Assembly (NCBI GenBank): GCA_944382965.1
Contig: CALWOA010000003.1
Location: forward strand, 79,155 to 143,154
DNA length: 64,000 nucleotides
Reading direction: 5' to 3'
DNA from: an uncultured Oscillospiraceae bacterium
GTDB taxonomy: Bacteria > Bacillota > Clostridia > Oscillospirales > Oscillospiraceae
Shown here: positions 40,997-56,924 of the stretch, one piece after another
How positions within the stretch are numbered: position 1 is the first letter of the stretch
Layout: every line of letters starts with the position of its first letter
Notes under the pieces: generated by a model
What the model saw: the letters and a program-made list of their open reading frames with translations, nothing else
Databases searched by the model: none
Told to the model about the DNA's origin: nothing
Position numbers and translations under genes: made by a program

Positions 40997-42824
40997 TTTC
41001 CTGAGCACGGCGCTTCATCAGGTTGCGCATCCGCAGGCCGTGATCCAGCTCCCGCTTGCGAATCCGCAGGCTCTTGGGAGTGCATTCCAGCAGCTCATCG
41101 TCTGCCAGGAATTCCAGGCACTGCTCCAGGGAGAATACCTTAGGGGGCGTCAGCCGCAGGGCTTCATCGGAACCGGCGGCACGCATGTTGGTCAGCTGCT
41201 TGCGCTTGCAGACGTTAACCGTCATATCCTCATTCCGGCTGCAAATGCCCACCACCATACCGGCGTACACCGGGGTGCCGGGGCCAATGAACAGGCTGCC
41301 CCGCTCCTGAGCGGCGGCCAGACCGTAGGTCACAGCCTCACCGGTTTCAAAGGCAATCAGAGAGCCGGTAAGCCGGCGCTCAATTTCGCCCTTCATGGGG
41401 GCGTAGGTCTCCAGGACGGAAGACATGATGCCTTCGCCCCGGGTATCGGTCAAAAATTCGTTGCGGTAGCCGAACAGTCCCCGGGAAGGTACCAGGAACT
41501 CCAGACGGTAACGGCTGCCCATAGGGGTCATGCCCAGCAGGTCTGCCTTCCGGCGGCCCATTTTTTCAATTACGGAACCCATGCAGGCTTCCGGCACATC
41601 GGCCACCATCCGCTCGATGGGCTCGCACACCTTGCCGTCGATGACCTTGGTCAGCACACGGGGGGTAGATACGGAGAACTCATAGCCTTCCCGGCGCATG
41701 GTTTCCATCAGGATGGACAGGTGCATTTCACCACGGCCTGCCACGTTGAAGGCATCGGTACCTTGCTCGGTAACATGCAGGGACACATCCTTCAGCAGTT
41801 CTTTCTCCAGCCGATCCCGCAGATTCCGGGAGGTGACGAACTTGCCTTCCTTGCCGGCGAAGGGAGAATCGTTGACGGCAAAGGTCATCTCAATGGTGGG
41901 GTCGGAAATCTTCACAAAGGGCAGAGGCTCCACGCACTCGGGAGCACACAGGGTACGGCCGATGGTGATGTCCGCCATACCGCTCAGAGCCACGATTTCA
42001 CCAGCGCTGGCCTGCTGAATGGGATTCTTGCCCAGGCCGTCAAACTCATACAGGGCAACCACTTTGCCCTTCTGCCGTACTTCCGGGTTGTGGTAGTCGC
42101 AGATGGTCACTTCCTGGTTAACCTTGATGGTACCCCGTTCCACACGGCCCACCGCAATCCGGCCTACATATTCATTGTAGTCAATGGAGGACACCAGCAG
42201 CTGCAAAGGAGCCTCTGCATCGCCCTGGGGTGCGGGGATATAGTTGACGATGGTTTCAAACAGGGGGGTCAGGTCGGTGCCTGCCACATCGGGGCCGTAG
42301 GAAGCGGTACCCTGACGGCCGGAGCAGAACACCGTGGGGGAATTGAACTGCTCGTCGGTAGCGTCCAGATCCAGCAGCAGCTCCAGAACTTCCTCCATTA
42401 CTTCGGAGATCCGGGCATCAGGCTTGTCAATCTTGTTAACGGCAACAATGACCTTGTGGCCCAGCTCCAGGGCCTTCTGCAGCACGAACCGGGTTTGGGG
42501 CATGGGGCCTTCAGCAGCATCCACCAGCAGGATAACGCCGTTGACCATTTTCAGAATCCGTTCCACCTCGCCGCCAAAGTCGGCATGGCCCGGGGTATCC
42601 ACAATGTTGATCTTGTAATCTTTGTAGTGTACAGAGGTGTTCTTGGCCAGGATGGTGATACCACGTTCCCGTTCCAGATCACCGGAGTCCATCACTCGTT
42701 CCACGGTGGCCTGATTTTCCCGGTAGATGCCGCCCTGCTTCAGCATCTCATCCACCAGGGTGGTCTTGCCATGGTCAACGTGGGCAATGATGGCGATATT
42801 TCGGATTTTCTCCTGAGGTACCAT
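40989..42824 (-). CDS. typA: Translational GTPase TypA/BipA
   Basis: A ribosome-associated GTPase that aids 50S assembly and stress adaptation. The 611-residue protein has the EF-G-like G domain with AHVDHGKTTL (G1), RGITI (G2), DTPGHADFGGE (G3) and NKID (G4), domain II, and the TypA-specific C-terminal domain (LTPPKVFSLEQCLEFLADDELLE region near residue 560). Full length. GAAGGAG precedes the start, and its own promoter lies 51 bases upstream. Confidence 0.97.
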   Translation of the reverse strand: MVPQEKIRNIAIIAHVDHGKTTLVDEMLKQGGIYRENQATVERVMDSGDLERERGITILAKNTSVHYKDYKINIVDTPGHADFGGEVERILKMVNGVILLVDAAEGPMPQTRFVLQKALELGHKVIVAVNKIDKPDARISEVMEEVLELLLDLDATDEQFNSPTVFCSGRQGTASYGPDVAGTDLTPLFETIVNYIPAPQGDAEAPLQLLVSSIDYNEYVGRIAVGRVERGTIKVNQEVTICDYHNPEVRQKGKVVALYEFDGLGKNPIQQASAGEIVALSGMADITIGRTLCAPECVEPLPFVKISDPTIEMTFAVNDSPFAGKEGKFVTSRNLRDRLEKELLKDVSLHVTEQGTDAFNVAGRGEMHLSILMETMRREGYEFSVSTPRVLTKVIDGKVCEPIERMVADVPEACMGSVIEKMGRRKADLLGMTPMGSRYRLEFLVPSRGLFGYRNEFLTDTRGEGIMSSVLETYAPMKGEIERRLTGSLIAFETGEAVTYGLAAAQERGSLFIGPGTPVYAGMVVGICSRNEDMTVNVCKRKQLTNMRAAGSDEALRLTPPKVFSLEQCLEFLADDELLECTPKSLRIRKRELDHGLRMRNLMKRRAQENG

Positions 42825-42874
42825 ATAATAAACGCTCCTTCGGGTTGTTAGATCTTTGAAACTCTCGACTGAAA

Positions 42875-42903
42875 ATTATAGCACCTAACCAAAAGTTTTG
42901 CAA
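42875..42903 (-). promoter_or_regulatory. Promoter of typA-capA
   Basis: Minus-strand TTGCAA (42903-42898), 17-base spacer, TATAAT (42880-42875). Confidence 0.8.
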
Positions 42904-42977
42904 GATATTTGGTGAAATTTACGAAGAAAAATTCTGTTTTTCATCCAGTTGCTTCCCCAACTGCCTGCAACACAGAA

Positions 42978-43003
42978 AGCCTCTTTGCTTGCGCAAAGAG
43001 GCT
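42978..43003 (-). terminator. Terminator at the end of the acsV unit
   Basis: 11-base stem AGCCTCTTTGC / GCAAAGAGGCT with a four-base loop, close after the DUF3786 gene. T-rich sequence follows on both strands, stronger on plus (TTTTCTTTTAC). Confidence 0.75.
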
Positions 43004-43009
43004 TTTCTT

Positions 43010-43621
43010 TTACATATACTGCTTGATGGTGGAAATCAGAATATCTCCGGCCACCACCCGGTCCTCGGCAGCAAAGCCCTCGGCAAAGTTGTCCGAGTAG
43101 AGTACCTGGGCATTGGGCGGGAATTCCTCGTCCCCTTCCCACACCAGCAGCTGCATCCGGTAGCCGCCGATCAGGGAAAATTCAAAGCCCGCGTCTCCAT
43201 GGGCAACAGGCTGGGCGCCCATTTTCTCCGCTGCTGCCCGGAATGCCGCCACCCGGGTACCGAAAGTATAAGCCGCCCGGGTCAATACCCGCCCGGTATA
43301 GGGCTGGATGTACATTTCTCCCCAGGGCATTTCCCGGAAGGTTTTCCACTGGCCCGCCCAGAATACATCCCGGCTTTCCAGCAGGTAGCGAAGCAGGAAG
43401 GTCTGGGTAGGCAGAGGCGGCAGAGCGCCCCCATCCAGCGCCCGGATAGCGTAGTCCGGGTGGGAAATTGCGAAGGTTCTGCCAAGCATGGTCAGGGTAA
43501 ACTCGTTACCGTCCCAGGATACGTCCTGCAGACGCTGCTTTACGCTTTCCGGGTCCAACTCCCGGAATTTCTCCTGGTAGTGGGCAAAGGGTACTTCTTC
43601 TTTATGATTTTCAATCTGCAT
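43010..43621 (-). CDS. DUF3786 domain protein
   Basis: The 203-residue soluble protein matches my recollection of the DUF3786 family (WDGNEFTLTMLGRTFAISHPDY, FLLRYLL, and FGTRVAAFRAAAEKMG regions). The family has no known activity, and I recall it from anaerobes with corrinoid enzymes, though this is not verified here. It is third in a tight minus-strand unit acsV-VOC-DUF3786, with 44 bases between genes and a GAGGAAAC site, which suggests a role linked to corrinoid protein handling. Confidence 0.7.
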   Translation of the reverse strand: MQIENHKEEVPFAHYQEKFRELDPESVKQRLQDVSWDGNEFTLTMLGRTFAISHPDYAIRALDGGALPPLPTQTFLLRYLLESRDVFWAGQWKTFREMPWGEMYIQPYTGRVLTRAAYTFGTRVAAFRAAAEKMGAQPVAHGDAGFEFSLIGGYRMQLLVWEGDEEFPPNAQVLYSDNFAEGFAAEDRVVAGDILISTIKQYM

Positions 43622-43665
43622 ATTGTTTCCTCTTGTATTGTCAGTCTGTATCGTAGGTATTGCCT

Positions 43666-44046
43666 TTATTCGTGCAGTTCTAACGGCAGACCGTCCGGGT
43701 CCCGGAAGAAGGTCATCCGGCGATTGGTATATGGATCTACACGGATGGGTTCCGTTTCAATGCCTTTGTCACGCAGCCATGCCGCTGCCGTTTCCACATT
43801 GTCCACATGGAAAGCCAAGTGCCGCAGCCCCCGAGCCTCCGGATTGGTGACACGAATGGGCGGATTTTCCTCTACAAACAGTTCTATCTCCACGTCCCCC
43901 ACCTGCAGGGTCAGGATGTAGTCCCGCCGCTCCGGGCGGTAGACCTCCCGCAACAGGGGAAGTTCCAGTTTATTTACATAAAACTCTTTCGCTGCCTGAT
44001 AGTCCGATGTGATAATCGCCACATGGTGGATCTGATCCAGCTGCAT
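43666..44046 (-). CDS. VOC (glyoxalase/bleomycin-resistance fold) family protein
   Basis: The 126-residue protein is a single VOC module pair: DQIHHVAIITSDYQAAKEFY at the start, VGDVEIELF with a metal-type glutamate, GLRHLAFHVDNVE and FFRDPDGLPLELHE at the end. It resembles the SMU1112c/YaeR group of glyoxalase-like proteins; the four metal positions (His, Glu, His, Glu) are kept. AGGAG overlaps the acsV stop region, so translation follows directly after acsV. Substrate unknown; methylmalonyl-CoA epimerase is less likely on motif grounds. Confidence 0.82.
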   Translation of the reverse strand: MQLDQIHHVAIITSDYQAAKEFYVNKLELPLLREVYRPERRDYILTLQVGDVEIELFVEENPPIRVTNPEARGLRHLAFHVDNVETAAAWLRDKGIETEPIRVDPYTNRRMTFFRDPDGLPLELHE

Positions 44047-44047
44047 A

Positions 44048-45973
44048 TTACTTCTCCTGCACGCTGTTGGGAAACAGTCGGGCATCGGTATGGGGCAGGA
44101 AGCAGGCTGCCACGAAAGAATCCATGTATCCAGGATAGGTACTCAGTTCCAGATAGGTCATGTTGGCGGCCACCTCGGCGGTCTTGGCGGCGGCTTCATC
44201 GCTGACCACCATAGCGTAGGCACCGCTGAGGGAGGAGTTGCCGATGTAATGGAACTTGCTTAGGTCCACATCCGGGAACATGCCGATATTTACCGCATTT
44301 TTCATATTGATGCCGCTGCCGATGCCGCCGGCAACATAGACGCTGTCAATCATATCCACCGTCATATCCACGCTCTTGAGCAGGGTGTCAATGGCGGAGA
44401 AAATAGCGCCCTTGGCCCGGATAAAGTTGTCGATATCCACTTCGTTGATGGAAATTTCCCGACCGGTTTCGCTCTCCTCTGCGTGTGCCAGCACAAAGCG
44501 GCCCATACCGTGGCTGTCCCGTTTCACCCGGCTGCCCTCCCGGACAAACAGGCCCTTGGCATTGATGATGCCGGTGCGGAACAATTCGGAAATGATGTCG
44601 ATGATGCCGCTGCCGCAGATACCTACCGCCTTCTGTCCCTCGTCACCAACAATGCTTAAGGTGGGTTCCATGGTAGCTTTGTCAATGGTACAGGCCTCCA
44701 CCGCACCGTCGGTGGCACGCATGCCGCAGGAAATGTCGCCGCCTTCAAAGGCTGGACCTGCCGAGCAGGCGCAGCTCATCAGGAAGTCCCGGTTGCCGAA
44801 CACGATTTCGCCGTTGGTGCCCAGATCAATGAACAGGCTCATTTCATCCTTGTCCCAGATCCCGGAAGCCAGAGTACCGGCGGTGATGTCACCTCCGACG
44901 TAGGAGCCGATGTTGGGCGCAATCAGCACCGGAGCCACAGGGTTTGCCAGCAGGTTTACATCCCCTGCCCGCATTCCCTCCCAGGAGAAGAAGCTGGGAA
45001 CATACGGCTCCATCCGGACGGACTCAGCGTCCACGCCCACAAACAGGTGGTTCATGGTGGTGTTGGCGCCCACAGCCAGGCGAAGGATATCCCGTTTGGT
45101 AATGCCGGCGCTCTTGCACAGGTTGCCTAAGATAGGGTTCAGGGTTTCCTTGATAATGGCCTTTTGCAGTTTCACCCGTCCGCCAGGGTGTCCCTGCTCG
45201 ATGATCCGGTTGATGACGTCGGCGCCGTAGCGAATCTGGCCGTTGCCGGAGGAACCTTTGGCCAGAATCTTGCCGGTGGCCAGATCTGTCAGCACCATGG
45301 TCACGGTGGTAGTACCGATATCGATGGCGGCACCTACAATGGCGGTATCATCTTTGCCGCAGATTTCCATGCAGCAGAAGGTATCTTCCTTGCGGTAGCC
45401 CTTGACGCAGACGGAGAAATTCTCTTCCCGCAGCGTGGCAGCCAGCTTCACCATCACGCAGAAGGGAATCTCCACATGGGATACCCCCAGAGCATCCTCA
45501 ATGGCCCAGGTCAGCCGTTCGTTATCCGGCATGGTATCTTCCAAAGTGGGTGCAGCCAGGTCCAGCTGCACTGCCAGGAAGGAATTTTCAAAATGGATGC
45601 CGCTTTCCTTCAGCTGTTCCTGGCATTCCTGGAAAATGGCAATCTCCTTGGGACTGCTCAGGTCAGCGGTTTTCATCCGGGACTGATATGCGCTGGCAAT
45701 ATCCGGCACAAACACAGTGCAGTCGCCTACAATTCGGCTGTTGCAGCTGAGCCGCCAGCCGGCTTCGTACTCTTCGTCACTGATATGGCGGCTCTGTATG
45801 GACTCCAACTCTCCCTCTACCAGCTGAACACGGCATTTGCCGCAGGAGCCGTTGCCGGAGCAGGGCGCGTCAATGGCCACGTTGGCCCGCCGGGCCAGTT
45901 CCAGCAAATTATCTCCGGCGTTGCAATCGATGGTTACGGGATTGGCTCCCTGGATTTGGAAAGTTACTTTCAT
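44048..45973 (-). CDS. acsV: Corrinoid protein reductive activator (RACo/AcsV type)
   Basis: The 641-residue protein has an N-terminal [2Fe-2S] ferredoxin domain with Cys38, Cys44, Cys47 (CSGNGSCGKC) and Cys77, a linker region, and a large C-terminal ASKHA ATPase domain (DUF4445) with AIDIGTTTVTMVL, GANTTMNHLF, SLFIDLGTNGEIV and GSGIID. In acetogens this protein uses ATP to drive electrons uphill and re-reduce inactive Co(II) corrinoid iron-sulfur protein to Co(I). The nearby acsC-E and acsD support that partner; RamA-type activators of methyltransferase corrinoids have a different Fe-S arrangement. AAAGGA precedes the start. Confidence 0.9.
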   Translation of the reverse strand: MKVTFQIQGANPVTIDCNAGDNLLELARRANVAIDAPCSGNGSCGKCRVQLVEGELESIQSRHISDEEYEAGWRLSCNSRIVGDCTVFVPDIASAYQSRMKTADLSSPKEIAIFQECQEQLKESGIHFENSFLAVQLDLAAPTLEDTMPDNERLTWAIEDALGVSHVEIPFCVMVKLAATLREENFSVCVKGYRKEDTFCCMEICGKDDTAIVGAAIDIGTTTVTMVLTDLATGKILAKGSSGNGQIRYGADVINRIIEQGHPGGRVKLQKAIIKETLNPILGNLCKSAGITKRDILRLAVGANTTMNHLFVGVDAESVRMEPYVPSFFSWEGMRAGDVNLLANPVAPVLIAPNIGSYVGGDITAGTLASGIWDKDEMSLFIDLGTNGEIVFGNRDFLMSCACSAGPAFEGGDISCGMRATDGAVEACTIDKATMEPTLSIVGDEGQKAVGICGSGIIDIISELFRTGIINAKGLFVREGSRVKRDSHGMGRFVLAHAEESETGREISINEVDIDNFIRAKGAIFSAIDTLLKSVDMTVDMIDSVYVAGGIGSGINMKNAVNIGMFPDVDLSKFHYIGNSSLSGAYAMVVSDEAAAKTAEVAANMTYLELSTYPGYMDSFVAACFLPHTDARLFPNSVQEK

Positions 45974-46021
45974 ACACGCAAGTCCTTTCGGTTAGATTTT
46001 ATTAAACTATCACCCGGTGGG

Positions 46022-47356
46022 TTATTCCTTCGGTTGAATCGCAGTAATGGAATTTAAGCCATAGTATCTGGCCATATCATTGTTCGGCCATTCGTCAGGA
46101 GATTTTGTGTCCAAATATTTTATTTCAAACACCGGACTTTGCTCCGTAGAACCCACTACATTTTCTAATTCAATATCCAGTTTTCCCTGATCCTTACACG
46201 CATAAATGTACGCTTCATTGTTTTTCATGCGCACATAGTTGTCCCGGATATCTGCAACTCCCACCAAAAAATCAGGTATGCACACAATAAGCGTCACCGC
46301 CATAATACATACCCCAGCGGTTCGGTATCGCAAATTTTCCAGCAGAGAATACAATGCAATTCCATCTGCGGCGACCAGGAAAATCACCGCGCTGGCTGCC
46401 GTCCGCTCTTTATAATAGCTGGCAAAAACCATAATGAAATTGGCTGCCAAAGAGCCTGCCAGGAATGCCAACGAAAGCAAATTCCTTTTCAGATCTGTTC
46501 TCTGGGATATGTTCAGGATCAGCATGACCGCATACGCAAGCAGAAGAATACCAAATTCTTCGTATACTTCCACTGCCCGGATCAGGTTTTGAAACAATAC
46601 ATAGAAAGACATTTCCGCTGCCTTATTCTCCAGTTGGGCAGGGGCCATATAGATACTGATATAACCCATGCAGGCACACAATACGGCAACGAACACATAG
46701 CCGCTGACGTTCCGTTTCCGAAAAAACGCCGTCATAGCCGTCAGCAGCATGGCAATAAAGATTGCTGCGGCAGAAGTGTTTTCATAGTAAGCCCCCGCAG
46801 CAAATGCCAGAAGTAAAAATCCAGCCTTTTTCCATCCTCCAGACAGCAGCTCGCCGCTTTCGGCACAGAACATCCGTATAAACGGCAAAAGAAACAGCAG
46901 GCAAACCACAATTCCCCATAGGTAATTGCAGGAACCATCCTGCCATAGGTTCACTTGTCCAAACAAAGGCTGATACATCCAGATTGCAGAAAAAACGACG
47001 GCCGAAAAAAATGCATTCCGCTTCACACCATATCCACTTATATAGCAAAGCAGCGCAATCTGCGCCGTAAACATACCGGCATTGACAATGTCAAAAACCC
47101 ATCTGGGCAGGATTGCAAAGAACTGCACAAAACTATGTGCAATCAGTCGGCCATTGGAAATTCCCGCATGCGCCTGCATAGATGGAATGATTTGCAGGAC
47201 ACTTTCCATGGGTTTTCCATCAGCAAAACTAAAAAAATAGGTATAATCATCCGCCAAATAAAGCGTATGCATATTCAAAAGCAGCATCAACAGGAAGATA
47301 CACCCCAAACTGATCCTGTGTATTCTTCCTGGTTGAATCCACTTGCGTAACTTCAT
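46022..47356 (-). CDS. Polytopic membrane protein (DUF6056/GtrII-like)
   Basis: The ~444-residue protein has about eleven membrane segments and an early ADDYTYF motif of the kind seen in DUF6056 and other GT-C-like membrane proteins involved in surface glycan assembly. The C-terminal ~80 residues are soluble. Base composition is visibly more AT-rich than its neighbours and codon use is less biased. It interrupts the run of corrinoid-pathway genes, so it is probably a later arrival without a role in that pathway. The start at 47356 has GGAG 11 bases upstream; family assignment is tentative. Confidence 0.68.
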   Translation of the reverse strand: MKLRKWIQPGRIHRISLGCIFLLMLLLNMHTLYLADDYTYFFSFADGKPMESVLQIIPSMQAHAGISNGRLIAHSFVQFFAILPRWVFDIVNAGMFTAQIALLCYISGYGVKRNAFFSAVVFSAIWMYQPLFGQVNLWQDGSCNYLWGIVVCLLFLLPFIRMFCAESGELLSGGWKKAGFLLLAFAAGAYYENTSAAAIFIAMLLTAMTAFFRKRNVSGYVFVAVLCACMGYISIYMAPAQLENKAAEMSFYVLFQNLIRAVEVYEEFGILLLAYAVMLILNISQRTDLKRNLLSLAFLAGSLAANFIMVFASYYKERTAASAVIFLVAADGIALYSLLENLRYRTAGVCIMAVTLIVCIPDFLVGVADIRDNYVRMKNNEAYIYACKDQGKLDIELENVVGSTEQSPVFEIKYLDTKSPDEWPNNDMARYYGLNSITAIQPKE

Positions 47357-47450
47357 TGTGAAAACGACTCCTTCTTTGCCGCAATTTCTCCAACTACCAT
47401 AAGGCTCTTCCAATTTTCGTGCTGCATCAAGCCATTGGTTGGGGAATTTT

Positions 47451-47882
47451 TTATTGCCTGGCTTTGCTATTTTTCTTTTGACTGACCTTTTGCCTCAGCT
47501 GTTTCACCAACTCCGGAAATCCCTCCGAAGCGTTGCACAGCGTATACTCCTGATCTGCTACGATGGTTATTTTCCACATTTTTTTGGAGGAAGTCGTTGC
47601 TTTTCCGGTGCTGTCAAAGCCCTGAAGCTTTTTGATTTTGCCAAAGGGAATGGCCAGAAAACCATCCTTGGTATCCAGCAGCAGACGGCGGGAGGTCAGA
47701 ATCCAGCGGCTGCCATGGTTGGGGCAGATTACTTTAACGTTCTCCCGGGGCTGCAGCACCGTCTCCAGCTTCCGGGTAAAATCCCGCTCTTTTCGTTTGC
47801 GCTTTTTCACAACGGCAGACCGGATAGCCAGCGCCGCAAGAATCACTGCGGCAAATCCGGACAAATACTGCCAATATTCCAT
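47451..47882 (-). CDS. Membrane-anchored protein with PH-like domain
   Basis: The 143-residue product has one N-terminal membrane segment (residues 5-22), a basic stretch (KKRKRKERDF) and a ~90-residue domain with NHGSRWILTSRRLLLDTKDGFLAIPFGKIKKLQGFDS, the pattern of bacterial PH-like (bPH) domains. GAGAGGAAC precedes the start at 47882. It lies after the acsC-E terminator, so it may be separately transcribed. Function unknown. Confidence 0.7.
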   Translation of the reverse strand: MEYWQYLSGFAAVILAALAIRSAVVKKRKRKERDFTRKLETVLQPRENVKVICPNHGSRWILTSRRLLLDTKDGFLAIPFGKIKKLQGFDSTGKATTSSKKMWKITIVADQEYTLCNASEGFPELVKQLRQKVSQKKNSKARQ

Positions 47883-47915
47883 TGTGCGTTCCTCTCCTGG
47901 GGTAAGATACAAAGG

Positions 47916-47942
47916 GGCTGGGAGGGAGGTTCCCTCCCAGCC
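47916..47942 (-). terminator. Terminator after acsC-acsE
   Basis: Perfect 11-base stem GGCTGGGAGGG / CCCTCCCAGCC with a five-base loop; minus-strand flank CCTTTGT has only a short T-tract. Confidence 0.65.
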
Positions 47943-47981
47943 GTAAATGCGTGGGATTTGTTCTGTTACAGCAGTCCAGCC

Positions 47982-50258
47982 TTACAGATCCAGGTAGGAG
48001 TCGGAGTACAGAACGTGGTTCTTGAAGATATCGCAGGACTTGATGGTCTCCATCAGGCGCAGGTCGCAGGGGTTGACGATAGCGGAGGTCAGGCCCTGCA
48101 TCATAGCCATGGCAACCAGAGCGGAGTCCATGATGGGACGGACGTTCTTGGGAGCGCCGTTGGAGTTGTTGGACAGACCGCCGGTGGACTTCAGGCCTTC
48201 GTCAGCGAACAGCTTGATGGCGTTCAGCACGTCCATCTGCTTGTCCTGCATGCCCTTGACAACCAGGAACAGGGGGTCAAACCACAGGTCGTCGGAGGTC
48301 ATGCCCAGACTCAGGCCGCGCTCGAGCATGTTGTGGCAGTGCTTCATGCGCTCTTCATTGTCCTTTGCAATGCCGTCGGCAGAGCACAGGGCGATACAGA
48401 TCGCGTCGTTGGCAGCAGCCAGGTCGATGTAGGAGATACGGGAGCCGGCGTCAGCAGAGTTGACGATGGGCTTGCCGTTGGCACGGTTGTAGACCTTGAT
48501 ACCGGCTTCGATAGCCTTCTTGTTGGCGGTATCCAGAGCCAGAGGCACATTGTTGAAGTTCTCCTGCAGCAGCTTGACAGCCCACATCATACGCTCGGGA
48601 CCATCCTTCTCAGCAGGTCCGATGTTGACGTCCAGGTAGGTAGCGCCGGCAGCGATCTGCTCAGCAGCACGCTTCAGAATAGGAGCGGGATCGCGCTCGT
48701 CCATAGCCTTGCGGATAGCGGGAGAGATGCAGTGGATCCGTTCGCCGATGGTGACGAAGGTCTTGCTCTCGGGGTTGTGGCCCTTGTAGGTAACACCCAT
48801 GTCCACAACTTCGATGGCGGGCACCTTGGTAGCCAGCAGCTCGTCGAAGGACAGCTCCTTGACCTCTTCGGCGGGAGCAGCAGCGGCGCGGGCGGCAGCC
48901 TCAGCGGCAGCAACCTTGGCAGCGGCTTCGTATTCCTTATCCTTCATGTACTTGGGCAGCTGCACAGCCTCGGTAGGACCAACAACCACGTGCCAGTCAG
49001 GCAGCTTCTCCTGAATCTCGCCCTTCATAACGGCAACCTTGCCGGGGATGATCAGGGTACGGTTCTTGATCTTGTTAGCGATGTCCAGCTCCTCGAAGGT
49101 CTTCTTGACGGAGGAGGAGGAGAACTTGCCGGCAGCCCAGGCAGTCAGAACGGACATGCCGGAAGCGTCGGTGATGATCAGGTTCACAGGCTGGTTGGAA
49201 CGCTCCAGTTCGCCGGAAACCAGGAAGTAGGTCAGAGCGAAGTCCACGGTCAAAGCGCAGGGGCTGTTCTCATCGGCGCCGTTCAGGGGGTAGATCTTGG
49301 CTTCCACCTTCATGGGCTTCTGAGGATCGGTGAAGATGTTCTGACGCAGACCGTACAGAGGCAGAGCCTGAGCGTAGGTCATGTTCTCCATGACGATGAT
49401 GGAAGCGTACCTCTCCACGAACATGGAAGCGTAAGCGGTCTGCAGGCGGTCGTCGCCCTGAGCCAGCTTGGCCAGGTTCACGATGGAGGGATAGCCGAAG
49501 GAACGGTCGCCGTCCTTCAGAGCGGTGCGGCGCACCAGAACAGCATTGGCCAGGGTCTCCTTGGCGGTCTTGCCGGTGACATCCAGAACCAGGTTCTTGT
49601 TGCCCTTGGCTTCCAGATTCTTCACGGTGTCGTACAGATCGGACAGGTTCTCAGCCCAGACGCCCAGGGTCACACCGGCAGCGGTGGCGACCTCGTTCAG
49701 AGCTTCCCAGTTGGCGGGAGTAGCGCCGTCCAGGATCACGTCCTTGCCGGCAACTGCCAGAGCAGCCTTGGCGCACTCAGCGTCCCAGCACTCCAGTACC
49801 AGGCTGCGGCCGGTAGCAGCAGCCTTCTCCACCAGCTTGGTGTAAGCAGCGGCGTCGCTGCCGGTGTTGCGGACGAACAGGAATTCAACGTACATCCGCT
49901 CGCCGATACGCTCGTAGTCAACCTTTGCCATTTCAGCCAGCTTGGCGTCAACCTCAGCCTCGCTCATGTCGGTGCTGATGGCAACGGCAAACAGGTTCTT
50001 ATTAACCAGGGTCTTCTCGTGACGGTACAGAACAGTCTCGCCGCCCATCTTGTGATCACCGACGGTGATGGTCTTCATGGGAGGTGCGGTCTGCTCGTTG
50101 AGCATTGCCTTCGCCTCGTCAGAGAAGTAGGGGCACTTGTCAATGGAAACAGCGCCCTGAGCCACCTTCATGCAGAAAGCCATACAGGTGGGGCTGCCGC
50201 ACTCCTTACAGTTCTTCTTAGGAGACAGCTTAAAAATGTCAAGACCTTTCAAAGCCAT
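47982..50258 (-). CDS. AcsC-AcsE fusion: corrinoid iron-sulfur protein large subunit joined to methyl-THF methyltransferase
   Basis: The 758-residue protein joins two Wood-Ljungdahl proteins usually made from separate genes. Residues 1 to ~440 are AcsC: an N-terminal [4Fe-4S] domain with Cys17, Cys20, Cys25 and Cys42 (CKECGSPTC...KCP), a TIM-barrel core and the corrinoid-binding C-terminal region. Residues ~443-467 form an Ala/Glu-rich helical linker. Residues ~490-758 are AcsE: GERIHCISPAIRKAMDERDP, YLDVNIGPAEKDGPERM, LALDTANKKAIEAG, VNSADA, DPLFLVV and GLSNNSNG, the dihydropteroate-synthase-like barrel that binds methyl-THF. The fusion would tether methyl donor enzyme and corrinoid acceptor. 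No stop or frameshift is seen between the halves, and bias in codon use suggests high expression. Confidence 0.93.
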   Translation of the reverse strand: MALKGLDIFKLSPKKNCKECGSPTCMAFCMKVAQGAVSIDKCPYFSDEAKAMLNEQTAPPMKTITVGDHKMGGETVLYRHEKTLVNKNLFAVAISTDMSEAEVDAKLAEMAKVDYERIGERMYVEFLFVRNTGSDAAAYTKLVEKAAATGRSLVLECWDAECAKAALAVAGKDVILDGATPANWEALNEVATAAGVTLGVWAENLSDLYDTVKNLEAKGNKNLVLDVTGKTAKETLANAVLVRRTALKDGDRSFGYPSIVNLAKLAQGDDRLQTAYASMFVERYASIIVMENMTYAQALPLYGLRQNIFTDPQKPMKVEAKIYPLNGADENSPCALTVDFALTYFLVSGELERSNQPVNLIITDASGMSVLTAWAAGKFSSSSVKKTFEELDIANKIKNRTLIIPGKVAVMKGEIQEKLPDWHVVVGPTEAVQLPKYMKDKEYEAAAKVAAAEAAARAAAAPAEEVKELSFDELLATKVPAIEVVDMGVTYKGHNPESKTFVTIGERIHCISPAIRKAMDERDPAPILKRAAEQIAAGATYLDVNIGPAEKDGPERMMWAVKLLQENFNNVPLALDTANKKAIEAGIKVYNRANGKPIVNSADAGSRISYIDLAAANDAICIALCSADGIAKDNEERMKHCHNMLERGLSLGMTSDDLWFDPLFLVVKGMQDKQMDVLNAIKLFADEGLKSTGGLSNNSNGAPKNVRPIMDSALVAMAMMQGLTSAIVNPCDLRLMETIKSCDIFKNHVLYSDSYLDL

Positions 50259-50279
50259 TGTATGTATCCTCCTTCCGAA

Positions 50280-51221
50280 TTAGACAAGTTCCGTGATGAA
50301 CTTCTTGATGGTAGCAATGGCAGCGGGATGGCGCATAATCACAGCGTCAGCACCGCCGGTCAGGTTGGCAGCGGCAGTGGAGACTTCCATCTCGATCGCG
50401 CGCTCTTCCTGGCAGCCCCAGGCGGGTTCATCTTCTTCGGAAGCGGTGGACTCCTTCACGCTCCAGCTGTCGGGAGACACGGGAGCCACAATGGGCATCT
50501 GCAGATCGGCATCGGACTGAGCCAGAGCAGCCAGACGGACACGGTCCAGAGTGGAAGCCACATACTCGAAGCCGTAGCCAACAGCAGCGGTACCAATGTT
50601 CATAACGATGTTTTCAGGAGCGATGGACAGGCCCTTGAGCATGATGTTCAGCTGCTTAGCCAGGTTGATATCGTCAGCGGTTTCAGCGCCGACCTTCTGG
50701 CCGTAAGCCAGAACAGCGGAAGCACCTACGGTCTTGTAGTCCTCGTTCTTAGCGGACATGACCAGGATGTTCTTGCCCTGCAGAGCCTCGGAGATCTTGG
50801 AGAACAGCTCTCCGTCCTTCTCCATGTTCTTGCAGCCCATGATGACGATGGGCATGGAAACAGCCTCGGCAACAGCCTTGGCATCCGCCACGCACTCGGC
50901 AACGGAGCGGTTGGCGCCGTTGGGGTCAGCAGACTCAAAGTGCAGGCACAGGAAATCAACACCGGGCATGGTCTCGGCCTTCTTGGCGTAGTCAGCCATG
51001 GTGGTGCAGCCAGCGTAGAACTCCTTCAGAGCGGGAGCGTTCCAGGAACCCGCCAGGTCGGAAATTTCTACACCAATCTTGGGTGCGTTTTCGATGGGTG
51101 CATCGAAGGTGTAAAACGGCATCACGTTCTGGCCGCCGATGACGATTGCCTTGTCACCGGTGCCCAGGGTCACGGCATTGATCTTGCCGCTGAAGGGAGC
51201 CGTCTTGGGAGTGAAAGCCAT
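50280..51221 (-). CDS. acsD: Corrinoid iron-sulfur protein small subunit
   Basis: AcsD pairs with AcsC to hold the corrinoid that carries the methyl group. The 313-residue TIM-barrel protein shows the family segments TLGTGDKAIVIGGQNVMPFYTFD at the start, VDFLCLHFESADPNGANRS, IGTAAVGYGFEYVAST and the conserved WGCQEERAIEMEVSTA. It ends 21 bases before acsC-E, consistent with matched synthesis of the two subunits. A GGGGGAT site precedes the start. Length is normal for AcsD. Confidence 0.95.
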   Translation of the reverse strand: MAFTPKTAPFSGKINAVTLGTGDKAIVIGGQNVMPFYTFDAPIENAPKIGVEISDLAGSWNAPALKEFYAGCTTMADYAKKAETMPGVDFLCLHFESADPNGANRSVAECVADAKAVAEAVSMPIVIMGCKNMEKDGELFSKISEALQGKNILVMSAKNEDYKTVGASAVLAYGQKVGAETADDINLAKQLNIMLKGLSIAPENIVMNIGTAAVGYGFEYVASTLDRVRLAALAQSDADLQMPIVAPVSPDSWSVKESTASEEDEPAWGCQEERAIEMEVSTAAANLTGGADAVIMRHPAAIATIKKFITELV

Positions 51222-51317
51222 AATGAATTATCCCCCTTGTTATTTGATAAATAAAATGGACTTTTTAATCATGCGCCCCGCATAAGGCAAAGCGCAGCAA
51301 TTACGAAAATAGTCGGC

Positions 51318-52085
51318 TTACAGGCCGATTTTCTGCATGATTTCCTTCAGTGCGGTCTTCATGGGGTCGTTTTCCGGCAGGCGGGCAGAGGGGCTTCCGT
51401 CACAGTCGCAGCGGTAAACCGCTTCGTCGTGAGGCAGCACGCCGAACAGCTTCAGGCCGTGCTTTTCAATCTCTTCCCGGATGCCGTCATCCAGAGCGCC
51501 GTCCGGTGCCCGGTTGATGATCAGACCCATCTGGCCGGGATTCAGGTTCATTTCCCCAATCATCTCGGCAATCCGTGCCACTGCCTGGACGCCCCGGCGG
51601 GAGCAGTCGGAGATCAGCAGCATGGTGTCCACATGGGGCAGGGTTCCCCGGGCGATGTGCTCCAGGCCTGCCTCATTGTCCATGACCACGTAGGAATAGT
51701 TGGCGGCATACTTTGCCACCTGGGACTGGAGCACGCCGTTGACATAGCAATAGCAGCCCTTGCCCTGGGTCCGACCCATGACCAGCATATCAAAGTCGTC
51801 ATCCTCGATCAGGGCGGAACTGAACTTCAGCTCGGCGTATTCGGCTTTGGTCATGCCCTTGGGGATGGTGCCTTTCAGCTCTGCCTGTGCCATTTCCTCC
51901 CGGATCTGGCCCAGAGAGGTCTCCACCTCCACGCCCAGAACTTCGTTCAGGTTGGAGTTGGCATCGGCGTCCACCACCAGGACGGGGCCGTTCTTCTTTT
52001 TGCACAGGTAGTCAATCAGCATGCCGCAGGTGGTGGTTTTGCCCACACCGCCCTTACCGGCAACGGCAATGGTATGAGGTGCCAT
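51318..52085 (-). CDS. cooC: CooC-type nickel-insertion ATPase for CODH/ACS
   Basis: CooC-family MinD-like ATPases help load nickel into carbon monoxide dehydrogenase or acetyl-CoA synthase. The 255-residue protein has the deviant Walker A AGKGGVGKTT (residues 8-17), VVDADANSNL, and the GCYCYVN segment whose Cys-x-Cys pair binds the metal across the dimer. VVMDNEAGLEHIARGT is also typical. Its presence implies a CODH or ACS enzyme somewhere in the genome, although none is in this window. It lies between metF and acsD; GGAG precedes the start. Confidence 0.92.
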   Translation of the reverse strand: MAPHTIAVAGKGGVGKTTTCGMLIDYLCKKKNGPVLVVDADANSNLNEVLGVEVETSLGQIREEMAQAELKGTIPKGMTKAEYAELKFSSALIEDDDFDMLVMGRTQGKGCYCYVNGVLQSQVAKYAANYSYVVMDNEAGLEHIARGTLPHVDTMLLISDCSRRGVQAVARIAEMIGEMNLNPGQMGLIINRAPDGALDDGIREEIEKHGLKLFGVLPHDEAVYRCDCDGSPSARLPENDPMKTALKEIMQKIGL

Positions 52086-52129
52086 AGTTTCGGTTCTCCT
52101 TAAGATAGAAAATTGCGTAAAATCAGGTT

Positions 52130-52161
52130 ACGAATCCTGCCCCCGAAGGGGCAAGATTCGT
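52130..52161 (-). terminator. Hairpin between metF and cooC
   Basis: 14-base stem ACGAATCTTGCCCC / GGGGCAGGATTCGT with one mismatch-type pair and loop TTCG. No T-tract; it could act as a processing or partial-attenuation signal. Confidence 0.55.
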
Positions 52162-52181
52162 TTGGTATGGAACTGAGGCGA

Positions 52182-53111
52182 TTAGATCAGGTCCAGCAGG
52201 CCGGCTTCCTTGGCGATGTAGGCAACATCCTCGTACTTGTTCAGTGCGTACAGGTGGATGCCGTTGATGCCGCAGGCGCGGTACTCGTCGATCTGGTTGA
52301 TGGTGTACTCGATACCAGCAGCCTTGAAGGAGGCCTTCTTGCCCTCTACGTCGGCATCGAAGGGATCCTTGACGAAGGGGTTGGGGAAGATCCAGTTCTT
52401 GGAGATGATCTCACACAGGGCACGGGGCATGACGCAGCCGTTGCGGGACAGAGCCATGTTGATGGTGGCAGCCTGGTCCAGGATGGGCATGATACCCACG
52501 TCCACCGGCATCCAGATGCCTGCGGCACGGATGGCGTCCAGCCAGTAACGGAACTGATCCATATCCCAGCACAGCTGAGTCATGATGTAGTCAGCGCCGT
52601 TGTCCTGCTTCTGCTTCAGGAAGGCGATGTCTGCTTCCAGGGAACGGCAGGCAATGTGGCCCTCGGGGGAACCAGCAACTGCGATGGTGAACTTGTCGCC
52701 GAACTCCTGACGAACGAACTTAACCAGCTCGGTAGCGTAATGCAGGTCGCCGCCGGTGCCGGTCCAGCCGAAGGGCAGGTCGCCGCGCAGGGCCAGCATG
52801 TGGTTGATGCCATGGTCCAGGTAGGTCTGCAGCTGTTCCTTGATGCCTTCCTTGGTGTTGCCGATGCAGGTGAAATGGGTCACGCCGGTGGTCTTGCCGT
52901 CCTTGACGATCTTGTCCAGGACTTCCAGGTTCTTGCCGACATTGGTGCCGCCTGCGCCGTAGGTGCAGGAGATGTAGTCGGGGTTCAGGGTGTACAGCTG
53001 GTCCAGAACGCCGCCTTCACCGCACAGTTTCTCCATGCCCACATCCGTCTTGGGAGGGAACACCTCGAAAGAGAACGCAGCGCGCTTGTCCAGGATATCC
53101 ATAACAGACAT
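52182..53111 (-). CDS. metF: Methylenetetrahydrofolate reductase
   Basis: Reduces 5,10-methylene-THF to 5-methyl-THF, the substrate of AcsE. The 309-residue protein is the compact bacterial type with FSFEVFPPK at the start, THFTCIGNT, HMLALRGDLPFGW, GADYIMTQLCWD and MPVDVGIMPIL, forming the FAD-binding barrel. No metV partner follows it here. It is first in the minus-strand acs cluster, behind a promoter with an overlapping palindrome; an AGGAGG site precedes the start. Besides the acs pathway it could serve methionine synthesis. Confidence 0.95.
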   Translation of the reverse strand: MSVMDILDKRAAFSFEVFPPKTDVGMEKLCGEGGVLDQLYTLNPDYISCTYGAGGTNVGKNLEVLDKIVKDGKTTGVTHFTCIGNTKEGIKEQLQTYLDHGINHMLALRGDLPFGWTGTGGDLHYATELVKFVRQEFGDKFTIAVAGSPEGHIACRSLEADIAFLKQKQDNGADYIMTQLCWDMDQFRYWLDAIRAAGIWMPVDVGIMPILDQAATINMALSRNGCVMPRALCEIISKNWIFPNPFVKDPFDADVEGKKASFKAAGIEYTINQIDEYRACGINGIHLYALNKYEDVAYIAKEAGLLDLI

Positions 53112-53183
53112 ACTTTTTTACCTCCTAATATTTACATCAATGGATAACGGTATATCATCGCATGGGCGCACTGCGTCCATATC

Positions 53184-53202
53184 GATACAACGATATCGTA
53201 TC
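53184..53202. promoter_or_regulatory. Palindrome overlapping the metF/acs promoter
   Basis: GATAC (53184-53188) and GTATC (53198-53202) flank a perfect CGATATCG (53191-53198). It overlaps the -10 and start region and is a candidate operator. Confidence 0.5.
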
Positions 53203-53223
53203 ATAATTTCATCTTAAATTCAA
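53195..53223 (-). promoter_or_regulatory. Promoter of the metF-cooC-acs cluster
   Basis: Minus-strand TTGAAT (53223-53218), 17-base spacer, TACGAT (53200-53195), followed by an ~80-base leader to metF. Confidence 0.65.
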
Positions 53224-53274
53224 CCCAAAATTTACGATATTTGATAAAATTTTGCCAGATGCTCCCGAGCTGCC

Positions 53275-53502
53275 TCACAGGGGTGTAAAGACAAATTTCT
53301 CCATCATTCCATCCACCAAAGCATGGATGGTGACAGTGCCTTCCGCCCCCGGTTCCACGGTCAGTTCCAGCTGCTTTCCCGCCAGGCGGGATTTCAGGTA
53401 CGCTACTGGGTCGTCGCAGGCAATTTCCTCGAAGAAAACGTCCCGCATCTGATTGTTGCGGCACAGGTTTTTGATTTCATGCACCAGTTCATATTCCGCC
53501 AT
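53275..53502 (-). CDS. Small conserved-looking protein of unknown function
   Basis: A 75-residue product (MAEYELVHEIKNLCRN...) with a helical N-terminal half and a short beta-rich C-terminus. The start at 53502 has AGGAG eight bases upstream. It follows the HAD gene by 14 bases and is the last gene of the rsmA unit, ending just before the acs promoter. No family is recognised; composition and RBS make it a likely real gene. Confidence 0.72.
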   Translation of the reverse strand: MAEYELVHEIKNLCRNNQMRDVFFEEIACDDPVAYLKSRLAGKQLELTVEPGAEGTVTIHALVDGMMEKFVFTPL

Positions 53503-53516
53503 GTCAAACACTCCTT

Positions 53517-54200
53517 TTACAGTTTTTCCAGCAGCCCTTCCAGCTGGGTCAGGTTTTCAATCTGGTAATCCGGGTGAATGCTGCCGCAGTTTTCTTTTTT
53601 GGGATTGACCCAGATGGTGGTGATTCCGGCGTTGATTCCCCCCTGGATATCTGAGCTGAGGCTGTCGCCTACCATCACCGTTTTCTCCGGAGAAAACCCC
53701 GGCATTTTCGCAAAGCAGGCGTCAAAATATTCCTTGGAGGGCTTATTGAATCCCAGTTCCTGAGAAATGAACACCTGCTCAAAATACCGGTACAGATCCG
53801 CACTGGTCAAGCGGCTGTGCTGCACCCTGGCAGTGCCGTTGCTGGCCAGAAACAGCCGGTATTTGCCATAGAGCCGGTCCAGAGCTTCCTGGGCGCCGGG
53901 TAGGAAATAATGCCCCTGGGACAGATTTTTCTCATAACTGCGGGCACAGGCCACTGCATCTGCCTGCTTCCCCAGCTGGGAAAACAGCGCTCCAAACCGG
54001 TTCACCAGCACCTGATCCCGGGTCATCTTCCCCAGTTCCAGCTGCTGCCAGTGCCAGCGGTTGATATCGTGGTAAAGATCCAGAACCTCCTGGGTGGGCT
54101 CCACCCCGAAGTCCCCGATGGTTTTGGAAATGGCAATGGCTTCGGCTTTGTGAAAGTCCAGGATGGTATCGTCCAGATCCAGCATCACACATTCAATCAT
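53517..54200 (-). CDS. HAD hydrolase, YjjG-like nucleotidase
   Basis: The 227-residue protein has the HAD motif I LDLDDTILDF, a helical cap (about 15-90), motif II LFLASNGT (normally SNG/T), motif III lysine in FNKPSKEYFD, and motif IV MVGDSLSSDIQGG. It groups with YjjG, a nucleotidase that removes unusual pyrimidine monophosphates. Its start overlaps the end of the preceding DUF3795 gene by eight bases. Substrate is by family only. Confidence 0.88.
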   Translation of the reverse strand: MIECVMLDLDDTILDFHKAEAIAISKTIGDFGVEPTQEVLDLYHDINRWHWQQLELGKMTRDQVLVNRFGALFSQLGKQADAVACARSYEKNLSQGHYFLPGAQEALDRLYGKYRLFLASNGTARVQHSRLTSADLYRYFEQVFISQELGFNKPSKEYFDACFAKMPGFSPEKTVMVGDSLSSDIQGGINAGITTIWVNPKKENCGSIHPDYQIENLTQLEGLLEKL

Positions 54201-54756
54201 GGTTTTCTCCTTTTGTCTTTGCTTTGGGCTTGCGCAGTTTCAGTTCCACGCCCTGCTCTGCGGCAATCCGGTGCAGCACTGCAGATGCCAGGGCTCCCCG
54301 GGCTTTGATATCCAAATCTTGTCCCTGGCTGCGAATGGCTTCCATCCCCTGCCGCAGGGAAGGCAATTCCAGCAGATTTGCCGCCAGGCAAAACAGGGTC
54401 TTTTTCCGCCCGTCGTTGTATTGCTCCAACAGCTCGGTTAAAATCGCCATTTTTTCCCGTTGTTCCCGGTTATAGGCTTCGATGCCAATGCATTTGGCTT
54501 TTTCCAAATCCGCTGTTCTTCTCTGATGGGTGATGAAAGAGTCATATGCGTCCGGCTGGCCGCACTTTTGACAGGGATATTCCGGGCAGCAGAAACAGTA
54601 TTCCACATCCCTGTGCTCCATGGCGCACCGGGCGATGGGGCAGGACTGGTTGCCGTTTCCGCAGCCGCCGCAGTATTTTCCGAGAAACATGGGACACAAT
54701 CCGCAGTTCAAGCCGCACAGGCTCAGCAGCTGATTCTCCCGAACAAATCCTTTCAT
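54193..54756 (-). CDS. Cysteine-rich DUF3795 protein
   Basis: The 187-residue protein has an N-terminal cysteine-rich region (CGLNCGLCP, YCGGCGNG, CPIARCAME, YCFCCPEYPC) that probably binds zinc or an iron-sulfur cluster, followed by a helical domain and a basic tail. This is the DUF3795 pattern common in anaerobes; its role is unknown. Its start overlaps the end of the gene before it by four bases, and its end overlaps the HAD gene, so all are translationally linked. Confidence 0.85.
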   Translation of the reverse strand: MKGFVRENQLLSLCGLNCGLCPMFLGKYCGGCGNGNQSCPIARCAMEHRDVEYCFCCPEYPCQKCGQPDAYDSFITHQRRTADLEKAKCIGIEAYNREQREKMAILTELLEQYNDGRKKTLFCLAANLLELPSLRQGMEAIRSQGQDLDIKARGALASAVLHRIAAEQGVELKLRKPKAKTKGENHD

Positions 54757-55238
54757 ACCGTTTCCCCTTCTGACCAGGCAAGCAACTCCATGGCCTTTTG
54801 TTTCAGGGCAGAAACCGTCCCATCTCCATCAGCCAGATTCCAGTCTTCCGGCAAAGGCGCACGCAAAATGTAGTCCGACCGCTCCGGATTTTCTGTCTGC
54901 TGAAAGGGGCAGTCCTTAGTCGCCAGCAGAGGAAACCACCGCTTCTGACTGCTCCGGTTGACTCCGGACAGCCACACTTCCAGCCGGAACTGTCTGTGCA
55001 GGAATACTACTGCGATTTTCAGCCCCCGGCTTTTCAACGCCTGGCTGGTAAACTGAAAATAGGAATAATCCATGGCATTTTCCGCAATATTGCCCTGGAA
55101 CTGAAACTGGGGCATTTCTTTTTCCATCTGAACCCGCAAAAAGCGGAATAATCGCACAAATTCCCCATAGCTCTCCGCCAGGGATGTGGTCTGCACCAAC
55201 TGTCTGTAAGTTTCCAGCAAACCGGCGTCAAACTGCAA
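54753..55238 (-). CDS. Uncharacterised protein (DUF7000-like)
   Basis: The 161-residue soluble protein contains FQFQGNIAENAMDYSYFQFT and KIAVVFLHRQFRLEVWLSG..NR, a pattern I associate with the DUF7000 family of small bacterial proteins, often near GNAT or DUF3795 genes. The assignment is from memory and not verified. It follows rsmA by 11 bases and overlaps the DUF3795 gene in ATGA, so it is part of the same operon. Confidence 0.72.
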   Translation of the reverse strand: MQFDAGLLETYRQLVQTTSLAESYGEFVRLFRFLRVQMEKEMPQFQFQGNIAENAMDYSYFQFTSQALKSRGLKIAVVFLHRQFRLEVWLSGVNRSSQKRWFPLLATKDCPFQQTENPERSDYILRAPLPEDWNLADGDGTVSALKQKAMELLAWSEGETV

Positions 55239-55249
55239 AGCCTCTCACC

Positions 55250-56116
55250 TCATTGCATTCCGTAACGGTCAATTTCCGCCGCAAGCCGGGCAAATTCCGG
55301 AATGCCCAAAGTCTCTCCCCGGACATTGGCGTCAAATCCGGCAGCGGCAATCACCTCTGCCGCCCCGGTTTTTCCCAGTTCCGGGAAGCCGGAGGCCAGG
55401 CCGTTGGACAGCTTCTTGCGCCGCATGGCAAAGCTGGCCCGCACCAGCCGGAAGAAGGTCTTTTCATTGTCCACCTTCCAGGGCCGCTCCCGGTAAGTTT
55501 TCAGAGAAATCACCGCCGAAGTCACCTTGGGCTGGGGCAGGAAGCAGTGGGCCGGCACATCAAATAGCAGTTCCGGCTGGGCGTAATACTGGCAGAACAC
55601 GGAAAACGCGCCGTAGTCAGCGCTGCCCGGAGCCGCCGCAATCCGCTGGGCTACTTCCTTCTGTACCATTACGGTAACAGAGTCAAAGCAATCCGCCTCC
55701 AGCAGCGCCGTCAGGATGGGGGATGTAATATAATAGGGAAGGTTTGCACAGGCCATGGGGCGCAGGCCGGGGAATTTTTCCTTTACCAGCGCCGGAATAT
55801 CCAGTTTCAGCACATCCTCCCACAGGATTTCCAGGTTGGAAAATTCTCCCACCGTCAGATCCAGAATGGGTTTCAGGCGGCTGTCCAGCTCCACGGCGCA
55901 GACTTTCCCCGCCCGCAGGCACAGCTGCTGGGTCAGTGGGCCGATGCCCGGGCCGATTTCCAGCACACCGGCACTTTCGTCCACACCGGCATCCTCTGCA
56001 ATGGACCGGGGCACCCAGGGGGCAATGAGGAAATTCTGCCCCTTGGCCTTGGAAAAGTGGAAGCCATGCTGGGCAAGCAGGGGCTTCATCACCTGAATAT
56101 CACATACGTCAACCAT
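55250..56116 (-). CDS. rsmA: 16S rRNA dimethyladenosine transferase (RsmA/KsgA)
   Basis: Dimethylates two adjacent adenines near the 3' end of 16S rRNA during 30S maturation. The protein from the ATG at 56116 is 288 residues. It has the family N-terminus KAKGQNFLIAP, SAM motif LEIGPGIGPLTQQL, and catalytic NLPYYITSPIL, plus the helical C-terminal domain. The frame is open further upstream but crosses the promoter, so 56116 is preferred. It heads a five-gene minus-strand unit. Confidence 0.94.
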   Translation of the reverse strand: MVDVCDIQVMKPLLAQHGFHFSKAKGQNFLIAPWVPRSIAEDAGVDESAGVLEIGPGIGPLTQQLCLRAGKVCAVELDSRLKPILDLTVGEFSNLEILWEDVLKLDIPALVKEKFPGLRPMACANLPYYITSPILTALLEADCFDSVTVMVQKEVAQRIAAAPGSADYGAFSVFCQYYAQPELLFDVPAHCFLPQPKVTSAVISLKTYRERPWKVDNEKTFFRLVRASFAMRRKKLSNGLASGFPELGKTGAAEVIAAAGFDANVRGETLGIPEFARLAAEIDRYGMQ

Positions 56117-56143
56117 AACACAAACCGCCTTTCTTCTGCCCTC

Positions 56144-56172
56144 ATGATAGCAGAACAAAGGCGGTTTTGCAA
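56144..56172 (-). promoter_or_regulatory. Promoter of the rsmA unit
   Basis: Minus-strand TTGCAA (56172-56167), 17-base spacer, TATCAT (56149-56144). Confidence 0.7.
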
Positions 56173-56235
56173 TGGAAAGTTCACCCCGGCGGCGAGGCAA
56201 TAGGCAGCGCCATACCGGCGCAAATCCCACAGCCA

Positions 56236-56326
56236 AGGAAGATCCCGGCCTCTCCGGACATTTGCCCATTTCGCCCCAGCGCTCCCCTGCTGGGGCAAAG
56301 AATCGGACAGTCCCCGTGATCTTCCT
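56236..56326. ncRNA. Possible structured RNA region
   Basis: A perfect nine-base long-range inverted repeat, AGGAAGATC (56236-56244) with GATCTTCCT (56318-56326), encloses a strong GCCCCAGC/GCTGGGGC hairpin (56273-56296) and further short complementary pieces. The layout suggests a multi-branched RNA. It lies downstream of the 41-residue ORF on the minus strand, so it could be a 3' UTR or separate RNA. No known RNA family is recognised and the strand is uncertain. Confidence 0.35.
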
Positions 56327-56379
56327 ATGGCAGTGGTGGTGCAGATCCTCACCTGGCGGCCGTGGGTAATCCCATGGGC

Positions 56380-56505: not shown

Positions 56506-56558
56506 GGCGGCCCCTCCTGCAAAATGCGGCAAACGTATCCCTCCAGAATAAAAGGTAT

Positions 56559-56575: not shown

Positions 56576-56601
56576 TTTTCCTCATTTCCTTTGGTGGCTT
56601 T

Positions 56602-56918: not shown

Positions 56919-56924
56919 TTCACT

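Follow-up and report, generated by a model that had tools for sequence, protein, structure and literature searches.

The window (the whole 64,000-nucleotide stretch of DNA analysed here, from an uncultured bacterium of the Oscillospiraceae) contains on its minus strand one open frame in which AcsC, the large subunit of the corrinoid iron-sulfur protein, is joined to AcsE, the methyl-THF:corrinoid methyltransferase. Read along the minus strand, metF comes first, then a gene for a P-loop ATPase, then acsD and directly after it the fusion, with acsV downstream. In window coordinates the features are as follows.

52182..53111, minus strand: metF-like methylenetetrahydrofolate reductase (Pfam MTHFR 214.1 bits, cut-off 24; NCBIfam fadh2 234.1, below 293.7)
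51318..52085, minus strand: CooC/MinD-type P-loop ATPase, lying between metF and acsD (Pfam CbiA and AAA_31 above cut-off; no NCBIfam cut-off reached)
50280..51221, minus strand: acsD, corrinoid iron-sulfur protein small subunit, 21 nt upstream of the fusion (NF040759 470.4 bits, cut-off 430)
47982..50258, minus strand: acsC-acsE fusion gene, an open frame of 758 codons plus stop, both domains above curated cut-offs
48936..50258, minus strand: AcsC part (corrinoid iron-sulfur protein large subunit), residues 1-441 (NF003195; closest solved chain 9fzy_F)
50127..50222, minus strand: 4Fe-4S motif domain, residues 13-44, with Cys 17/20/25/42 (Pfam FeS)
48762..48935, minus strand: linker, residues 442-499 (58 residues), an Ala/Glu/Lys-rich part and then a conserved tail
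47985..48761, minus strand: AcsE part (methyl-THF:corrinoid methyltransferase barrel), residues 500-758 (NF040758)
44048..45973, minus strand: acsV, corrinoid activation/regeneration protein of the RACo type (NF040756 929.2 bits, cut-off 800)

The uninterrupted 758-codon AcsC-AcsE frame claimed in the first-pass annotation, which did not specify a strand, is confirmed and lies on the minus strand. Pfam domains follow one another in the order FeS (13-44), CdhD (70-436) and Pterin_bind (522-729). The NCBIfam AcsC model (PRK04165, NF003195) is matched at 512.8 bits against a cut-off of 306, residues 1-441 aligning with model positions 1-446 of 450, and the AcsE model NF040758 at 466.4 bits against a cut-off of 370, residues 500-758 aligning with positions 3-261 of 261. 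The Fe-S cysteines C17, C20, C25 and C42 are kept in all 41 aligned fused rows (window included, out of 86 distinct fused sequences), as are D576, N600, D661 and N697, which align with D75, N96, D160 and N199 of 1f6y; the latter four we take to be the active-site residues of Moorella AcsE, with roles presumed accordingly. The completeness asserted earlier for both halves thus holds, for AcsC through a full-length profile match above cut-off together with the cysteines, and for the AcsE barrel through a profile match over residues 500-758 together with the four active-site residues. Two other models for chains of related kind stay well under threshold with the window's fusion, HgcAB-like fusion (NF043039) at 50.6 bits against a cut-off of 285 and MetH methionine synthase (TIGR02082) at 87.3 bits against a full-length cut-off of 1010.85. 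The plus strand is also open across the whole 47982-50258 span, within a 1271-codon frame at 47439-51254 that is antisense to acsD and the fusion; such a frame probably results from GC-rich codon usage, and it can mislead gene calling that relies on open frames. A DUF6056 protein is encoded on the minus strand at 46022-47413, between the fusion and acsV.

The surroundings are those of the Wood-Ljungdahl pathway. The product of the metF-like gene is the likely source of methyl-THF, and acsD precedes the fusion by 13-23 nt, in the same orientation, in 93/93 loci having a near-full AcsD match (92 fused loci plus L074, some being the same genome twice). CODH, ACS and formate-THF ligase are each matched in 15 of 16 fused genomes, the fused G257 giving no match to formate-THF ligase (FTHFS) and the 99% complete G151 none to ACS or CODH. 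All three are matched in the window's own genome, where CODH and ACS lie together on another contig (CooS at C9:86408-88270, and at C9:89987-90448 the genome's one ACS match; whole genes in L206) and formate-THF ligase on a third. In some fused genomes acsB adjoins acsD-acsCE, as at 3930-5279 of L008 (G019), downstream of the fusion, with an ACS match elsewhere as well.

Whether a locus is fused or split was called from sequence, since automated open-frame lengths can bridge stops (1081 versus 765 for overlapping stretches). The genus sample (Candidatus Faecousia, according to several record names) comprises 101 genomes, 92 with a match to the fusion protein. By our own count a whole unbroken fusion (query residues 1-2 to 756-758) is present in 47 of the 101, and 21 further genomes have a partial copy that crosses residues 441-500 without a stop, which makes 68 of 101 unbroken across the junction. 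Other matches in the genus are shorter pieces (that in G003 ends at residue 497) or distant methyltransferases, and every one of the nine genomes devoid of a fusion match is less than 85% complete. Among the best 80 of 524 related stretches, these 80 being loci from named genomes, 79 are fused by sequence, the exception being L074. Beyond the genus, the family sample of 300 genomes gave 230 with a match. The whole fusion, sequence-checked in each case, occurs in 21 genomes of 11 further Oscillospiraceae genera (L101-L121), and in other genera of the family four more genomes (G161, G221, G282 and G391) are fused across the junction and clipped by contig ends; G1366 and G392 are split on sequence check. 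One hundred regions chosen from family, order, class and phylum divide into 21 fused and 79 classed split. One of the latter, L123 (G255), is really a single frame over the junction that is frame-shifted within AcsC, leaving 78 regions with separate genes. In all, 201 entries, window included, were classed as 120 fused, 80 split and one lacking the pair of domains; many of the fused entries are the same genome found two ways, and 86 fused and 79 split sequences remain after a length filter and exact dereplication.

Outside the family no fusion is present among the matches listed for the order (295 genomes sampled), the class (391) and the phylum (398), sequence checking there being confined to the fetched regions, and the remaining sequence-checked relatives in family, order, class and phylum encode the AcsC and AcsE domains as separate genes. 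The suggestion of a lineage-specific version in gut Clostridia is therefore upheld, with the fusion within Oscillospiraceae and separate genes in relatives outside. A separate second AcsE serving as backup was considered and rejected: the cut-off of the AcsE model is exceeded exactly once per genome in 20/20, and in 16/16 fused genomes that single match is the fused copy. No description of an AcsC-AcsE fusion, let alone of one as a well-described standard form, the prospect against which the first-pass annotation had been set, was found in the literature searched, a scope lying outside most subscription papers and all preprints.

Most of the genomes are, by their record titles, MAGs, and an assembly or binning artefact accordingly has to be weighed as the origin of the joined frame. 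It is scarcely credible, however, given the unbroken junction in the 68 genus genomes, and again outside the genus in 21 whole and 4 partial copies, from 25 sampled genomes, together with a fused record, L037 (NZ_JAHLPU010000040.1), that is a RefSeq record with no MAG label. Chance and artefact are excluded because the same layout recurs in many assemblies.

The split relatives indicate what the joining would have involved. In the split loci fetched, acsC is followed by acsE, whose start lies 1 to 855 nt after acsC, and this gene order is common to split relatives and fusion; the two genes share a frame in 42 of 79. In the split pairs of other Oscillospiraceae, Clostridia and Bacillota, whose AcsE is 58-82% identical to that of the window (L123 aside), a stop, an intergenic stretch and an acsE start of its own are present in the ten printed, all of which are absent from the fusion. 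That start is an ATG after a GGAG-like stretch in 10/10, and separate AcsE proteins have no linker: of 80 loci classed split, 74 have their nearest upstream Met three residues ahead of the domain match. The fusion probably arose in an ancestor of a subset of the Oscillospiraceae, when the stop of acsC and the gap separating it from the adjacent acsE were lost. A distant AcsC (40% identical) on the minus strand of L225 (G562) is in a 623-codon frame with some 180 extra residues ahead of it, an extension that is neither AcsE nor AcsD.

On a tree of 165 rows the fused/split label switches three times, for the main fused group, L133 and L074. The AcsE halves of fused proteins form one clade (SH-aLRT 99; 40 chosen rows). 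In the AcsC tree (the same number of chosen rows) the split L133, from G170, is grouped with fused L100/L113 (SH-aLRT 100), within the fused group and beside the subclade with a Pro-rich linker, and a fused-only AcsC clade is rejected (p-AU 0.008; 40 chosen rows). In the AcsE tree L133 falls just outside one fused clade (SH-aLRT 99), its union with the L100/L113 group not being rejected (p-AU 0.29). Since the AcsC tree nests a split locus among fused ones, the fusion arose either twice or a single time, being lost again afterwards; the linker tail that fused proteins share leans towards a single origin, and the separate genes of G170 are a possible loss of the fusion. At 6790-11210 of that genome's locus L205, separate acsC and acsE are directly followed by acsB, and the AcsC groups with fused AcsC. 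The other exception, L074 (by coordinates the genus genome G053), has an in-frame TAG inside the linker with both halves apparently intact, and is either a recent interruption, or natural re-split, or a sequence error.

The linker itself had been described as Ala/Glu-rich at about residues 443-467 with the barrel from about 490 to 758. The composition stands; the limits found here are 442-499, with AcsE from 500. Across fused proteins its length ranges from 41 to 63 residues, with a median of 58. Ala (43%), Glu (18%) and Lys (13%) make up much of the first 25 residues, which vary among fused proteins, and the last part, just before the barrel, is similar across fused subclades. In seven comparisons with relatives (two giving identical figures) pN/pS is 0.12-0.46 for residues 442-467 and 0.08-0.31 for 468-499, and both parts of the linker are under purifying selection at the protein level. 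Four in-frame start codons lie within or close to the linker, and none of them is, judged by eye, preceded by a ribosome-binding site. The predicted structure has a helix at 442-460, a short coil, a short helix at 471-477 and then an extended, fairly well-predicted stretch to 501.

These features bear on whether the joining has any functional consequence. A lost stop could have joined the neighbours neutrally, with the linker passive or cut after translation. For this speak the side-by-side position of acsC and acsE where they are split (42 of the 79 loci classed split have both in one frame) and the presence in the fused AcsC clade of L133 with its separate genes, as well as the linker stop in one genome. 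It is nonetheless improbable when the fusion has been retained across at least 11 further genera, the linker tail is conserved in fused subclades and the linker is under purifying selection.

Much the better-favoured reading, and one we hold with good confidence, is that the fusion works with AcsD as a tethered Wood-Ljungdahl module, with the methyl-transfer parts on a single polypeptide. Weighing against it are the uncertain domain arrangement, G151 with a fusion but no ACS or CODH match, G257 with no FTHFS match, L133 and L074, which lie beside or inside the clade with the fusion absent or interrupted, and the frame-shifted L123. The predicted structure of the fusion has a mean pLDDT of 88.3 and a pTM of 0.56, the placement of the halves relative to each other being uncertain; in it the AcsC part matches 9fzy_F (TMt 0.75) and the AcsE part 1f6y_A (TMt 0.90, rmsd 1.7). 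A model of AcsD with the fusion has a mean pLDDT of 76.4, AcsD being poorly predicted. Domains, active-site residues and the partner gene acsD are the same as for separate AcsC/AcsD plus AcsE (PDB 4djd, 9fzy and 1f6y), but there are two proteins there and one polypeptide here, with a 41-63-residue linker.

The chemistry of the separate corrinoid iron-sulfur protein and of MeTr (AcsE) is established, as is that of the Wood-Ljungdahl pathway at large, and the proposed mechanism is built upon it. The gene would yield one chain of about 80 kDa pairing with AcsD. The AcsE barrel would bind methyl-THF and methylate the Co(I) corrinoid in the C-terminal domain of AcsC, a mobile domain from whose end AcsE would hang on a tether of about 58 residues. 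Methyl-Co(III) would next reach the nickel of AcsB, with AcsV rescuing Co(II). The tether would keep the methyltransferase close to its carrier in a 1:1 ratio, raising the local concentration, undocking for ACS still being needed. That one uncut polypeptide is made, that it is active, the local-concentration effect and the subunit arrangement are all what we infer. From the models the linker looks like a tether and not a rigid dock. Of the earlier proposals, fixed stoichiometry follows from the gene structure, at 1:1, conditional on the chain staying uncut, and channelling of methyl transfer is a conjecture. The idea that a covalent link replaces the large conformational docking of the separate proteins is without support here: ACS and AcsV are both encoded in the genome and would still have to be reached by the corrinoid domain, so that the tether would not abolish undocking.

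A further reading concerns the acceptor. Fusion and AcsD might act as a methionine synthase divided among several proteins, supplying its folate and cobalt functions, with the methyl group passing to a stand-alone zinc homocysteine methyltransferase. This would happen besides donation to ACS, or instead of it where ACS has been lost; we regard such dual use as no better than tentative. The MetE domain PF01717 (Meth_synt_2) is found in 0/19 genomes, as against 10/14 control genomes, and none of the 19 exceeds the cut-off of the MetH model, one that 4 of 11 control genomes with matches also miss. Homocysteine methyltransferase regions were sought in 16 fused genomes and genes extracted from 15, all of them encoding stand-alone enzymes; these are 284-313 residues long, and the motifs G-x-N-C and GGCCG are present in 15/15. 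G093, however, has no stand-alone match. By our reading, 10 of the 16 fused genomes have no folate barrel matching the MetH model other than that of the fusion (G093, G019, G010, G001, G021, G035, G055, G131, G151 and G199), and in G019, G021, G131 and G151 it and the homocysteine enzyme are the sole matches to that model. By our own count only 3 of 101 genus genomes have a MetH-length frame among their AcsE-part matches. Against this, MetH-like frames of about 800 residues are present in the fused G185 and G129 (one is present also in the split G170). Moreover the split G197 and G316 likewise have no MetH above cut-off and no MetE, and the pattern is therefore not tied to fusion.

G151 also bears on the methionine proposal. 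At 7362-11398 of its locus L204, metF-acsD-acsCE is kept in a genome that is 99% complete, and the fusion there has a 41-residue linker and all eight Fe-S and active-site residues (it is a row among the 41); its AcsD is under the model cut-off, 375 bits versus 430. As there is no ACS or CODH match in this genome, ACS cannot be the fusion's methyl acceptor there.

Gene context lends the proposal little. In the window's genome a stand-alone homocysteine methyltransferase domain is encoded at L208:5049-5912 (contig C57), with similar ones in 14 other fused genomes, and this contig is a different one from that of the acs genes; in three loci scanned the gene is away from the acs genes, with uninformative neighbours. 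Among the open frames scanned, several were assigned to no family, some of them probably being antisense. Rfam at gathering thresholds gave nothing in window 40000-60000. In 22 related loci it matched tRNAs, a TPP riboswitch (L218) and a single SAM riboswitch (L219), the last lying opposite in strand to the gene of the homocysteine enzyme, so that no SAM riboswitch was found in that search at the acs genes or on the strand of the homocysteine enzyme. Of nine homocysteine enzymes scanned, 0/9 reach a family cut-off; the best model is the N-terminal half of another bifunctional enzyme, and the methyl donor may therefore differ.

The cobalamin-dependent methionine synthase MetH too has a folate barrel and a cobalamin domain in one chain, and the idea of tethering is common to both, but its cobalamin domain, domain order and acceptor are different and the fusion has no homocysteine domain. 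MesB and MesC methionine synthases are predicted to draw methyl groups from AcsCD (PMC7857596), so that the same carrier would be giving methyl groups to methionine via MetE-type enzymes; their MetE-type catalytic domain is, however, the PF01717 found in 0/19 genomes here. If all transfer from methyl-THF to cobalt in these cells passed through AcsD and the fusion as a general hub, this pair would feed ACS and also stand in for methionine synthase in its folate and cobalamin functions, and the latter would be the job remaining in G151. We offer that as a conjecture with the odds against it; if the methionine reading is true, the route is one for which no counterpart was found in the literature searched.

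The fusion has a bearing on annotation surveys. A 2024 survey of human gut genomes used eggNOG-mapper orthology labels and had Faecousia among its Oscillospirales genera; acsE went undetected in 78% of its Oscillospirales genomes, from 7 of the 9 genera, and was found in other groups (PMC11338639). A fused gene labelled by its AcsC half alone would make acsE appear missing, and the fusion probably explains this 'missing' acsE. A rumen survey required acsE for a genome to be called an acetogen, using KO labels from METABOLIC (PMC12449052). With such a requirement fused lineages may be undercounted; that fused genomes were dropped from that particular survey is a guess.

What is present is a real, conserved joining of two known proteins in a family of mostly uncultured gut bacteria, undescribed in the literature searched. 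The fusion and its split relatives offer a ready comparison of whether tethering a methyltransferase to a mobile corrinoid domain alters the rate, affinity or order of methyl transfer.
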